A stretch of 64,000 bases of DNA from Plantactinospora mayteni (GTDB taxonomy: Bacteria; Actinomycetota; Actinomycetes; Mycobacteriales; Micromonosporaceae), in assembly GCF_016862935.1 (NCBI RefSeq), contig NZ_BONX01000011.1, positions 62,001 through 126,000 on the forward strand, written 5' to 3'. How positions within the stretch are numbered: position 1 is the stretch's first letter; each line of letters opens with the position of its first letter. Below are positions 57,541-62,970 of this stretch, in pieces. The notes beneath the pieces are model-generated. The model was not told the origin of the DNA. It saw only the letters and a list, made by a program, of their open reading frames with translations, and did not search any database. A program made the position numbers and the translations under genes.

Positions 57541-57555
57541 TAGGCTGGAGCGGTG
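57541..57555 (+). promoter_or_regulatory. Leaderless promoter of lipB
   Basis: TAGGCT (57541-57546), 6 bases, GTG at 57553. The lipA promoter at 60130 has the same hexamer. Confidence 0.65.
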
Positions 57556-58209
57556 ACCAGCACTGTTGCCGCGTTGACCAGCGTCCGGCTCGGGACGGTG
57601 GACTATCTGGCGGCCTGGGACGAACAGCGTCGGGTGCACGAGGCGGTGGTCGCCGGAGAGCTTCCGGACAGCGTGCTGCTGCTGGAACACCCGAGCGTCT
57701 ACACGGCCGGCAAGCGCACCGAGCCCTGGGACCGGCCGATGGACGGTACGCCGGTGATCGACGTGGACCGGGGCGGCAAGATCACCTGGCACGGCCCCGG
57801 CCAGCTCGTCGGCTATCCGATCCTCACGCTCCCCGGGGCGGACACCGGACTGCCGGTGGACGTCGTCGCCTTCGTCCGGCGTACCGAGCAGTTGCTGCTC
57901 GACGTCTGCGCCGAACTGGGACTGGGCACGGTCATGCTGGTCGAGGGACGCAGCGGCGTCTGGGTACCAGCCGACGAGCGCGGGCCGGAACGCAAGGTGG
58001 CCGCGATCGGCATCCGGGTGGCCCGGGGCGTGACCCAACACGGCTTCTCGATCAACTGTGACTGCGACCTCGCCGCGTACGACCGGATCGTCGCCTGCGG
58101 GCTGCGCGACGTCGGCGTCACCTCACTCACCGCCGAACTGGCCCGCCCGGTCACCGTCGCCGAGGTCCTTCCGATCGTCGAACGCCACCTCCCAACCCTC
58201 CTCCCCTGA
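57553..58209 (+). CDS. lipB: Octanoyltransferase
   Basis: A 218-residue enzyme that moves octanoyl groups from acyl carrier protein to lipoyl domains. [20 protein letters not shown], the [18 protein letters not shown] signature, [22 protein letters not shown] with the catalytic Lys, and the [12 protein letters not shown] cysteine region are all present. Its targets include SucB and GcvH. lipA lies about 2 kb downstream, separated by the opposing aspS gene. Confidence 0.96.
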
Positions 58210-58326: not shown

Positions 58327-59709
58327 TCACGGGGTGAGGCGGTGCAGGTCGCGCGGGAACGCGGTGACCTCGCGGACGTTCGTCGCTCCGAGCAGCCTGG
58401 CCACCATCCGCTCCAGGCCGATGGCGAAACCGCCGTGCGGTGGCATGCCGTGCCGGAACGCGTCCAGATAGCCGGCGTACGGCTCGACCGGCTCGCCCCG
58501 CTGCGCGAGCGCGGCGAGGTAGTCGGCGTACCGGTGCAGCCGCTGGCCGCCGGTGACCAGCTCCACGCCCCGGAACAGCAGGTCGAACCCGTTCGAGTAC
58601 GCCCGCGCCGGACCGCCCGACGGGGTGTCCTCGGTCGCCGGGTGGGTGTAGAAGGGGCGCTTGGCCAGCGGATAGCCGGTGACGAAGAGGAAGTCCGAGC
58701 CGTGCTCGGCCCGGGCCCAGTCGCCGAGCGCCCGCTCGTGTGCCGGGGCGAGGTCGGGCTCGTCCGGCGGTGCTCCGGCGATCGCCAACGCCTCGGTGAA
58801 GTGCACCGCCGGAATCTCCGGCGCCGGCAGGTCGAGCCGGCCCGCCCCGGCCCCGGTCACCCGGCCGGCGAGCCGCCCGAGCCGACCCTCGACCTCGCCG
58901 TGCCGACCCTCGACCTCGCCGAGCCGGCCCTCGACCTCGCCGAGCCGACCCTCGACCTCGCCGAGCATTCCGGCCAGCACGTCGCGGAGCAGCCGCATCA
59001 CGTCCCGGTGGTCGGTGACGAAGCCGAACTCGACGTCCAGCGAGGTGTACTGGGCCAGGTGCCGGGTGGTGTCGTGCGGCTCGGCCCGGAACACCGGCCC
59101 CACCTCGTAGACCCGCTCCAGCACCCCGACCAGCATCTGCTTGTAGAACTGCGGCGACTGGGCCAGATAGCCGGGCCGGCCGAAGTAGTCGAGGGCGAAG
59201 ACGTTCGCGCCGCTCTCGGTGGCGGCGGCGACGATCTTCGGGGTGTGCACCTCGACGAAGCCGAGCCGGTCGAGGGCGGCCCGGAAGCCGGCCACCAGGG
59301 CGGCCGAGATCCGCAGCGCGGCGGCCCGACCGGGGTGCCGCAACGCCACCGCCGCATGGTCGAGCTGGGTGGGTAGCGCCGCGGTCAGCTCCGGGCGGTA
59401 CACGTCGAACGGTGGCGGCACGGCCGGGTCGCCGAGCGGTCGTACCGTCGGATCGACCAGCTCGACCCCGGCGGGCGCGGCGGGGTTGCCGACCACCCGG
59501 CCGGTCACCTCCAGCACCGACTCCTCGGGCAGGTCGGCCAGCCGGGCCCGCAGGTCGGCAGCGGTCACCACCACCTGGGCCAGCCCGGCGGCGTCCCGCA
59601 GGATCAGGAACGTCACCGACTTGAGTTGCCGGCGGCGGTGCACCCAGCCGGCGGTGGTCACGGTCGCGCCGACGTGCGCGGAGAGGGAGGCGGAGAGGAC
59701 ACGTGGCAC
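58327..59709 (-). CDS. aspS: Aspartyl-tRNA synthetase, archaeal type
   Basis: A 460-residue class IIb synthetase. The OB-fold starts the protein (TTAGWVHRRRQLKSVTFLILRD). Class II motif 2 is FRAEPHDTTRHLAQYTSLDVEFGF, with the flexible YLAQSPQFYKQ loop; motif 3 is GGFAIGLERMVARLLGATNVRE. The short length and the lack of the bacterial GAD insertion (bacterial AspRS is about 590 residues) mark it as archaeal/eukaryotic type, often non-discriminating between tRNA-Asp and tRNA-Asn. A variable region (about 250-285) contains four LGEVEGR repeats encoded by 21-base units. The GTG at 59709 has GAGGAG 8 bases upstream. A T-box precedes it. Confidence 0.92.
   Translation of the reverse strand: MPRVLSASLSAHVGATVTTAGWVHRRRQLKSVTFLILRDAAGLAQVVVTAADLRARLADLPEESVLEVTGRVVGNPAAPAGVELVDPTVRPLGDPAVPPPFDVYRPELTAALPTQLDHAAVALRHPGRAAALRISAALVAGFRAALDRLGFVEVHTPKIVAAATESGANVFALDYFGRPGYLAQSPQFYKQMLVGVLERVYEVGPVFRAEPHDTTRHLAQYTSLDVEFGFVTDHRDVMRLLRDVLAGMLGEVEGRLGEVEGRLGEVEGRHGEVEGRLGRLAGRVTGAGAGRLDLPAPEIPAVHFTEALAIAGAPPDEPDLAPAHERALGDWARAEHGSDFLFVTGYPLAKRPFYTHPATEDTPSGGPARAYSNGFDLLFRGVELVTGGQRLHRYADYLAALAQRGEPVEPYAGYLDAFRHGMPPHGGFAIGLERMVARLLGATNVREVTAFPRDLHRLTP
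58881..58964 (-). repeat. 21-base in-frame repeats in aspS
   Basis: Four copies of gccgaccctcgacctcgccga-type units encode LGEVEGR heptads, with charge and hydrophobic spacing of a short coiled coil. They lie between catalytic motifs 2 and 3, in a surface insertion. Confidence 0.85.
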
Positions 59710-59768
59710 CTGGACTGCTCCTCGGTGTGGTCGCGGCGCGCTCGACCCGAACGCGCCGGTGGCCCCGG

Positions 59769-60000
59769 GGAGTGTGGGCGAGCGGGTACTCGCGGTGCCA
59801 CCACACCTTCACCGCCGACGCCACGGCCGGCGGCCTCGTTCGTGGCCCGTGACGCGGGCCGGGTCGGCGGGTTCTAATGGGCGCCGAGACGCCGTTCTTC
59901 CCGCAGCTCGGGAGGGTCTTCCCAGCCCGGCCGGAGATCACCTTCCAGCGACGGTGACTCTCTGGACTCCGGTTGTCGGGCTGGTACTCGGCTCCGTCCA
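59769..60000 (-). ncRNA. T-box leader of aspS
   Basis: Read on the minus strand. A short Stem I is closed by TGGAC (60000-59996) and GTCCA (59967-59963). Its loop holds AGTA (59988-59985) and GAC (59977-59975), an Asp codon that would pair with tRNA-Asp, directly followed by AAC, an Asn codon. The hallmark T-box sequence GGTGGCACCGCG is at 59802-59791, with UGGC (59800-59797) able to pair with an NCCA end whose discriminator is G, as in tRNA-Asp. GTGTGG next to it can pair with CCACAC (about 59777-59772) in one state, while GGTGTGGT can pair with ACCACACC (59731-59724), just before the ribosome binding site. That suggests control of translation, as in actinobacterial ileS leaders. The T-box core is clear; the Stem I fold is my reading. 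Confidence 0.72.
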
Positions 60001-60012
60001 CGCTCTGCCCGG

Positions 60013-60018
60013 AGGGTA
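60013..60018 (-). promoter_or_regulatory. Candidate -10 box of the aspS T-box transcript
   Basis: On the minus strand TACCCT (60018-60013) lies about 13 bases before the Stem I, so transcription would begin near 60006 and include the whole T-box. Confidence 0.5.
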
Positions 60019-60129
60019 GCCGGGCCGGTCGGCGTTCTGACACCGAATATCCCATCCGGCGTGAGTGGTATCACCTGGTCCGGCACGTGAGGCCGGTCGC
60101 CTCCGGTCGATCGGCCGACCCGTGACGCG

Positions 60130-60145
60130 TAGGCTCGGATTCGTG
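60130..60145 (+). promoter_or_regulatory. Leaderless promoter of lipA
   Basis: TAGGCT (60130-60135), 7 bases, GTG at 60143. It lies about 115 bases from the divergent aspS promoter. Confidence 0.65.
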
Positions 60146-61276
60146 ACCATCGAGCAAGCCGCGCCATCCACCGCCGCCGAAGCCGGAGGGGTGAGCGTCG
60201 TGACCGCACCGGAGATCCGTACCGGCCATCCCGTCGCGCCGGAGGGGCGCCGGCTGCTGCGGGTCGAGGCCCGCAACGCGGCGACGCCGATCGAGCGCAA
60301 GCCGCCGTGGATCAAGGTCAAGGCGAAGATGGGTCCCGAATACACGCAGCTCCGTGGACTGGTCTCCCGGGAGGGTCTGCACACGGTCTGCCAGGAGGCC
60401 GGCTGTCCCAACATCTACGAATGCTGGGAAGACCGGGAGGCGACCTTCCTGATCGGCGGTGACCAGTGCACCCGCCGGTGCGACTTCTGCCAGATCGACA
60501 CCGGCAAGCCGGCCGACTTCGACGCGGACGAGCCGCGCCGGGTCGCCGAGTCGGTGGTCGCGATGGGCCTGCGGTACGCCACCGTGACCGGCGTGGCCCG
60601 GGACGACCTGCCGGACGGCGGCGCCTGGCTCTACGCCGAGACGGTCCGGCAGATCCACGGGCTGACCCGCCGGGAGCAGCAGCCCGGTGCCGAGCAGGCC
60701 GGCGCCGCCGAGCGTGCCGGCGGTACTCGCGAGCGTGCCGGCGCTGCCGAGGAGGCCAGCGGGACCCTGGACGGCCTGCCGCACTGCGGGGTGGAGTTGC
60801 TGGTCCCCGACTTCAACGGCAACCCGGAGCAGCTCGCCGAGGTCTTCGGCGCCCGCCCCGAGGTGCTCGCGCACAACGTCGAGACGGTACCCCGGATCTT
60901 CAAGCGGATCCGGCCGGCGTTCCGCTACGAGCGCTCGCTCGACGTACTCACCCAGGCTCGGGCCGCCGGGCTGGTGACCAAGTCCAACCTGATCCTCGGG
61001 CTCGGCGAGGATCGTGCCGAGATCTCCCAGGCGCTACGCGACCTGCACGCGGCCGGCTGCGAGCTGGTCACCATCACGCAATACCTCCGCCCGACGCCCC
61101 GGCACCACCCCGTCGAGCGGTGGGTCCGGCCGGAGGAGTTCGTCGAGCTGCGCGAGGAGGCCGAGGAGATCGGCTTCGCCGGGGTACTGAGCGGGCCGCT
61201 GGTCCGCTCGTCCTACCGGGCCGGCCGGCTCTATCAGCAGGCCGTCGAGGCCCGGACGGCACCGACCGCCAGCTAA
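60143..61276 (+). CDS. lipA: Lipoyl synthase
   Basis: A 377-residue radical SAM enzyme that inserts two sulfurs into the octanoyl group placed by LipB. The auxiliary cluster ligands are C83, C88 and C94 ([14 protein letters not shown]), and the SAM cluster ligands are in CTRRCDFC (109-116). [28 protein letters not shown] in type and the C-terminal [11 protein letters not shown] are intact. An insertion of about 40 Ala/Gly/Glu/Arg residues (about 174-214), encoded by imperfect repeats at 60662-60785, interrupts the usual short loop before [12 protein letters not shown]. LipA proteins are normally about 290-340 residues. A GTG 17 codons inside is an alternative start. Confidence 0.95.

Positions 61277-61512: not shown

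Positions 61513-62970
<1,458 letters not shown>

Follow-up and report, generated by a model that had tools for sequence, protein, structure and literature searches.

Upstream of aspS2, a gene for an archaeal-type aspartyl-tRNA synthetase (AspRS) in Plantactinospora mayteni, lies a leader that resembles a T-box riboswitch, and the locus raises the questions of whether this leader is a genuine T-box, which tRNA it would sense, at what level it would act, and what a second synthetase would do for the cell. The window analyzed here is the whole 64,000-nucleotide stretch of contig NZ_BONX01000011.1 from position 62,001 to 126,000; aspS2 occupies 59709-58327 on its minus strand, as judged from the open reading frame list, profile scores, and a structure match. 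The explanation that we favor, with considerable confidence, is an Asp-specific translational T-box that controls this second, archaeal-type AspRS as a reserve enzyme. Computed support comes from T-box identity, the GAC specifier, the tRNA fit, covarying helices, the association with the gene, the second AspRS copy, and a search that found no terminator; tRNA binding, switching, the translational level, and the reserve role are what we infer. The original prediction, which described a T-box with adjacent GAC and AAC codons ahead of this gene, was partly confirmed as an observation and partly supported as an interpretation.

T-box identity and anatomy of the leader

The hallmark motif GGTGGCACCGCG was found at 59802-59791 of the minus strand, with UGGC at 59800-59797, 93 nt before the GTG start codon at 59709. 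A search with the Rfam T-box model RF00230, proposed with the original prediction, aligned the full model (positions 1 to 219 of 219) to 60009-59771 with 53.6 bits and an E value of 6.4e-11 when 601 nt were scanned with the threshold lifted; over the whole genome (9.84 Mb, 123 contigs) the E value was 2.6e-10, and no other credible match was present in the genome, the sole other row at an E value of 10 or less scoring 12.7 bits. The score falls short of the gathering score of 93 bits and a scan of the whole window at the gathering threshold gave zero matches, so that a hit above threshold, taken literally, is absent. Matches to RF00230 at an E value of 0.01 or less occurred in 121 of 150 genomes of the family, with none above 93 bits in any of the 150, and 2 of 14 control genomes had matches over the cut-off. 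T-box identity was decided by comparative evidence, namely, the motif upstream of the relatives' genes and covariation, and not by the cut-off.

An archaeal-type AspRS2 was found in 111 of the 150 family genomes, with 110 rows usable. At least 76 of these 110 genes have an RF00230 match in the 600 nt upstream of them, and 33 of the other 34 upstream stretches contained the T-box motif, which thus precedes 109 of 110 family aspS2 genes; the exception is L137. On this comparative evidence, the leader (60009-59710, minus strand) is a real T-box.

Stem I extends from 60005 to 59904 and is of full length, containing, in order, a base helix, GGAG/CUCC, AGUA (59988-59985, on the 5' side of the specifier loop), a long helix, an AGAGAG bulge, a distal loop, and GAA-GAC-C, in which GAC (59918-59916) is the specifier codon. 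The compact Stem I closed by TGGAC/GTCCA that had been proposed is thereby replaced. Stem I is followed by the Stem II region (59904-59867; GCGGG/CCCGC with AUUAGAA), placed by the RF00230 alignment and by reading of the sequence; by a GGCCCG/CGGGCC hairpin (59860-59844) that by its position is probably the Stem IIA/B region; and by the Stem III region (59834-59811), located by the RF00230 alignment. The antisequestrator (59806-59772) consists of the helices GUGUGG/CCACAC and GCGAG/CUCGC around the T-box bulge UGGCACC (59800-59794). The leader therefore contains an antiterminator-like element whose UGGN bulge, here UGGC, is complementary to the GCCA end of tRNA-Asp, as well as a Stem I specifier that corresponds to the amino acid of the downstream gene.

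The alignment of related leaders, also suggested with the original prediction, gave strong covariation in both Stem I and the antisequestrator. From 66 leaders with the long motif, 56 were retained (under 265 nt and nonidentical), and 54 of these were aligned, with L027 and L184 omitted; AGU of the AGUA element was invariant in all 54. Over 27 Stem I pairs chosen by reference to the window and Rfam, 92.5% of 1,449 cells were paired and 21 pairs had changed on both sides, and RNAalifold, applied to the same alignment, returned 26 pairs that were mostly the same as the named ones, 19 of them with double changes. The antisequestrator, aligned in 68 of 69 distinct leaders (L027 omitted), was paired in 98.0% of cells, with double changes in 7 of 12 pairs. 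The covariation score was 0.391 in Stem I, compared with 0.153 when shuffled and at most 0.075 when slid, and 0.197 in the antisequestrator, compared with 0.106 and at most 0.069, respectively; the shuffle counts are not probabilities, since the aligned rows share descent.

Specifier, tRNA partner, and the second AspRS

The hexamer GAAGAC was invariant in all 54 aligned long leaders. The adjacent codons of the original prediction belong to a GACAAC at 59977-59972, which lies on the 5' strand of a Stem I internal loop, away from the specifier place, and occurs in 2 of 54 leaders. The tRNA-Asp of the genome has the anticodon GUC and ends in G73-CCA, fitting both GAC and UGGC, and the Asp specificity of the prediction is thus upheld by sequence matching. 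The tRNA-Asn that was found, with anticodon GUU, likewise has G73; UGGC therefore fits both tRNAs, and the specifier alone distinguishes them. Recognition of tRNA-Asn by the leader, alone or alongside tRNA-Asp as had been suggested, draws on this shared G73, on a Clostridium relative with AAC at the specifier place, and on two residues of the synthetase discussed below; we regard it as very unlikely, given that the specifier stretch reads GAAGACC with no AAC frame, that GAC is retained in ultrashort leaders too, and that a GUU anticodon could read GAC only through a U-G pair at the first position of the codon. The leader accordingly falls outside the two-codon (Asp plus Asn) type of T-box. The T-box of Clostridium acetobutylicum that reads tRNA-Asn and tRNA-Glu (PMC4052509) provides a precedent, as described there, for T-box control of tRNA-dependent amidation genes, but the leader studied here lacks an overlapping second codon for Asn. 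One feature counts against the favored explanation: a purine is usual after the specifier according to PMC7583486, whereas the base 3' of GAC is C in 28 of 54 leaders, including that of the window, and A in 26. The T-box very probably senses uncharged tRNA-Asp and then permits synthesis of the second AspRS.

The aspS2 product, at 460 amino acids, scored 492.8 bits against PRK05159 (cut-off, 353), and the closest solved structure is 1n9w, which is described as a nondiscriminating, archaeal-type enzyme, in agreement with the archaeal-type assignment. The further suggestion that it might be nondiscriminating agrees with its residues but not with its profile score: at two diagnostic columns, which we take to be marks of nondiscriminating AspRS, it has H and P, as does 1n9w, whereas W and K stand at these places in the Thermococcus enzyme (among 105 rows of the aspS2 clade, 100 have H and 101 have P), but its TIGR00458 score of 320.6 bits lies below the nondiscriminating cut-off of 368.4.

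Elsewhere in the genome lies a gene for a bacterial AspRS (709.5 bits), and 148 of the 150 family genomes have such an enzyme scoring over the cut-off. Searching the genome at the protein level with an E value of 0.001 returned five rows, namely, aspS2, two pieces of the bacterial AspRS, and two weak pieces on C18, which we take for LysRS; there was no AsnRS-like row among the five, and gatB is present in the genome. Because of these three observations, aspS2 is viewed as encoding a second AspRS, and the genome as one in which Asn-tRNA is probably formed by amidation. Such a second AspRS is called rare in bacteria in PMC4206432. The archaeal-type AspRS2 of Thermus and Deinococcus likewise stands beside a bacterial enzyme, shares H and P, and includes the closest structure, 1n9w; the Plantactinospora case differs in its genome without an AsnRS-like row, in its T-box control, and in that the activity of its product is a prediction.

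The gene lies between two plus-strand genes judged by eye to be lipB-like (57553-58209) and lipA-like (60065-61276), and in several family genomes the region upstream of aspS2 also contains pieces of a lipA-like start. Within aspS2, a 21-bp unit is repeated 4.3 times in frame at 58877-58966 (GEVEGRL repeats), a feature not seen in the congeners L088 to L090. The second codon, CCA, is rare (3 of 36 aspS2 proline codons), a count too weak to serve as an argument, and it was dropped.

Pairing around the start site and level of control

Two mechanisms could connect a tRNA-Asp sensor to aspS2. In a transcriptional T-box, the same sensor would govern termination, for example, through a GC-rich hairpin at about 59757-59735, between the T-box and the gene; the full-length Stem I, which is typical of transcriptional T-boxes (PMC7583486), would also be in keeping with this. 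No site with a stem and a following T run was found in 59600-60150, however, the leaders tend to have a run complementary to the Shine-Dalgarno sequence beside the antisequestrator, and the ileS T-boxes of actinobacteria likewise lack terminators according to PMC1262725. Transcriptional control is therefore considered unlikely. A promoter scan at the leader gave no consensus site; TANNNT was present in 55 of 56 leaders within a searched stretch of 32 nt immediately before or at the leader start.

For control at translation, three OFF pairings are candidates in the window according to complementarity and folding. The 3' strand of the antisequestrator merges into a CUCC or ACCUCC run that complements Shine-Dalgarno sequences; in the window, CUCC (59772-59769) overlaps that strand and could act as an anti-Shine-Dalgarno element toward GAGGAG (59723-59718). 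The second candidate is the pairing of GGUGUGGU (59807-59800) with ACCACACC (59731-59724), which adjoins the Shine-Dalgarno sequence, and the third is that of the T-box strand GUGGCACC (59801-59794) with GGUGCCAC (59710-59703), which contains the GUG start codon (59709-59707).

These candidates fared differently depending on what was folded. With 59809-59700 alone, GUGGCACC/GGUGCCAC reached a pair probability of 0.99 around the GUG start and CUCC with GGAG reached 0.98. Four folds of the full-length leader, with Stem I imposed in two, gave a mean pair probability of 0.43 to 0.82 for GGUGUGGU/ACCACACC, with which the minimum free energy structure of the full leader agrees, 0.13 to 0.43 for the start pairing, and 0.002 to 0.22 for the free antisequestrator. 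The antisequestrator is thus not predicted as the free state in any fold, as a switch requires. The switch proposed originally, GGTGTGGT with ACCACACC, gains from being favored in the full-length folds and loses from its value of 0.004 with the 3' part alone and from its poor conservation among congeners: ACCACACC is absent in three of four (L088, L089, and L091), and in L090 it lies about 23 nt before the Shine-Dalgarno sequence.

Across the relatives, Shine-Dalgarno complementarity could be scored in 85 of 106 leaders, folding with an imposed antisequestrator in 104, and start pairing in 93. The CUCC:Shine-Dalgarno pairing beat shuffles at the 0.05 level in 33 of 85 leaders, the window being borderline at 0.055. 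When the antisequestrator was imposed, the Shine-Dalgarno sequence gained more than 0.1 in unpaired probability in 61 of 104 leaders but became more hidden in 14, mostly of one clade, in a set in which the start choice is wrong for some leaders, such as those with GGGG; in the window leader, the unpaired probability rose from 0.17 to 0.47. The start pairing beat shuffles at 0.05 in 43 of 93 leaders and is lacking in L090; 102 predicted gene starts of the window and its relatives (aspS2 included, starts rough) averaged -12.0 versus -13.9 kcal/mol, and the T-box strand pairs better with another gene's start in some loci. Pairing of the T-box with the start codon was consequently rejected as a general rule for the family. 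For the window leader, it stays among the three possible OFF pairings because of its high probability in the 3' part alone and its lower one at full length. The lack of a terminator-like site in 59600-60150 and the modeled freeing of the Shine-Dalgarno sequence make control at translation likely, as had been anticipated.

According to the favored explanation, uncharged tRNA-Asp would read GAC in Stem I with its anticodon GUC and pair its free GCCA end with UGGC, which would hold the antisequestrator and free the start site, so that the reserve AspRS would be made alongside the constant bacterial AspRS. With charged tRNA-Asp, the antisequestrator would be undone and the ribosome site hidden through CUCC on the Shine-Dalgarno sequence, GGUGUGGU on the adjoining ACCACACC, or the T-box strand on the GUG start.

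Among the closest known counterparts are the translational ileS T-boxes of actinobacteria, exemplified by Class III in Nocardia farcinica and Class IV in Actinomyces odontolyticus, which resemble the leader in their phylum and in lacking a terminator, and in which the Shine-Dalgarno sequence is hidden in the OFF state, as is predicted for the counterpart in the window (PMC10482949, PMC1262725). The leader differs from them in having GAC instead of AUC, aspS2 instead of ileS, and a full-length Stem I. Translational T-boxes are described as having mostly an intermediate or ultrashort Stem I, with a few long ones (PMC7583486). Four T-box classes are distinguished in PMC10482949, with ileS exemplifying III and IV, and PMC1262725 describes the actinobacterial T-boxes upstream of ileS as acting on the Shine-Dalgarno sequence. 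In PMC2494555, 12 of 19 actinobacterial genomes are listed with 32 T-boxes in total, probably including 18 of Symbiobacterium, which is set apart there. The his operon of Corynebacterium glutamicum carries a transcriptional T-box, and ileS is therefore not the sole target in the phylum, in which T-boxes are stated to be broadly distributed (PMC9413887).

Stem I series and spread of the T-box/AspRS2 pair

In a quick tree of 124 AspRS rows, with long branches flagged, 59 rows were labeled as having a long Stem I and 41 as having a short one. The label changes 9 times on the tree, and at least 5 changes are forced by well-supported branches; by this sequence-based reckoning, Stem I type, long or short hairpin, has changed several times, and we infer that most changes were from long to short. 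Among 34 short leaders, 31 contained UGAC in an apical loop of 6 to 9 nt on a stem of 3 to 7 pairs, the next best triplet reaching 13 of 34; L030 failed (GGAC), the hairpin of L149 is doubtful, and L152 and L159 failed on account of a truncated stretch, GGGAGUGACGCCC being visible in their sequence. In L148 and L151, one and the same 7-pair stem survives a change from G-U to A-U. A specifier in a small apical loop is also found in the Class III ileS T-boxes (PMC10482949). An apparent "intermediate" Stem I in Catellatospora-like leaders turned out to be a short hairpin, ccggAGUGACGCccgg.

Three leaders, L011, L024, and L035, have a Stem I that is either missing or broken, and L145 has lost it too. 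A palindromic repeat, AAGGAAGGGCCCCC...GGGGCCCCT...TTAACACC, is inserted in five leaders of Micromonospora and its kin (L008, L011, L017, L024, and L035), in three of which Stem I is lost or broken. The broken leaders and the motif-less L137 indicate that loss is tolerated and, together with the low RF00230 score, would fit a decaying T-box that no longer switches. That the window leader is such a relic is highly improbable: its named elements are intact, all 26 Stem I pairs tested can form in it, and its relatives keep their helices by compensatory changes.

Outside the family, AspRS2 is patchy: it was present in 25 of 394 genomes of a class sample, 22 of them outside the family, and the T-box motif lies upstream in 18 of these 22. 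It was not found at L227, whose AspRS match lacks the first 71 residues, nor upstream of three divergent AspRS2 genes outside the family (36 to 39% identity). Motif-bearing relatives include Micromonospora, Catellatospora, Actinoplanes, Nonomuraea, Nakamurella, and Actinophytocola as well as metagenome-assembled genomes (MAGs) of Chloroflexi, Acidimicrobiaceae, and Bacillota. L123 and L224 carry a divergent archaeal-type AspRS-like gene (PRK05159 score of 454.7 bits in L123) behind a long T-box with GAAGACC and fall on a long branch of the AspRS tree, outside the aspS2 clade.

In Bacillota, 10 of 16 AspRS loci scanned had an RF00230 match over the cut-off, and the specifier place was GAC in 7 of 8 leaders among the matches listed; the eighth, a Clostridium bovifaecis T-box before an archaeal-type AspRS (L070:3689-3936), has AAC (Asn). 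Three Bacillota MAGs (L042, L043, and L064) have two tandem T-box motifs before an archaeal-type AspRS. The Class I T-boxes of Bacillota, among them those that precede archaeal-type AspRS genes, share the full Stem I, AGUA, bulge, and distal loop with the window leader but score above 93 bits, compared with 53.6 for the leader, in which no terminator was found. Nine family loci (L101, L102, L105, L106, L112, L114, L118, L119, and L120) have long-Stem-I T-boxes, most with AUC at the specifier place, before IleRS-type genes whose N termini are unlike those of the genes behind ultrashort ileS T-boxes (L092, L113); TIGR00392 was the best match, in part, for both of the two scanned (L105 and L118). 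These are perhaps another T-box-controlled second synthetase.

The leader is a known kind of switch with a specificity unusual for Actinobacteria. Literature searches found no paper on an actinobacterial Asp T-box; the TBDB table lay outside that search. Actinobacteria were searched with a class II model for TBDB (PMC7778990), and the leaders studied here may already be in its table. The translational T-boxes described in PMC1262725 and PMC10482949 are those of ileS, and a series of Asp-specific leaders on one orthologous gene, with Stem I ranging from full length to ultrashort, provides matched natural pairs that would be useful for learning the role of the elbow-binding part of Stem I and the way in which it can be lost. 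The analysis also predicts that the second AspRS is an inducible reserve. More speculatively, and with doubt, the Asp T-box and archaeal-type AspRS may form an alarm-and-replacement module that has spread over Actinobacteria, Chloroflexi, and some Bacillota, acting here at translation, possibly with the start codon covered by the T-box strand, and with Stem I repeatedly reduced from full to ultrashort while GAC was kept. If this is true, failure of the housekeeping AspRS through starvation or a natural inhibitor would, by way of uncharged tRNA-Asp, induce a foreign-type AspRS that may escape the inhibitor.
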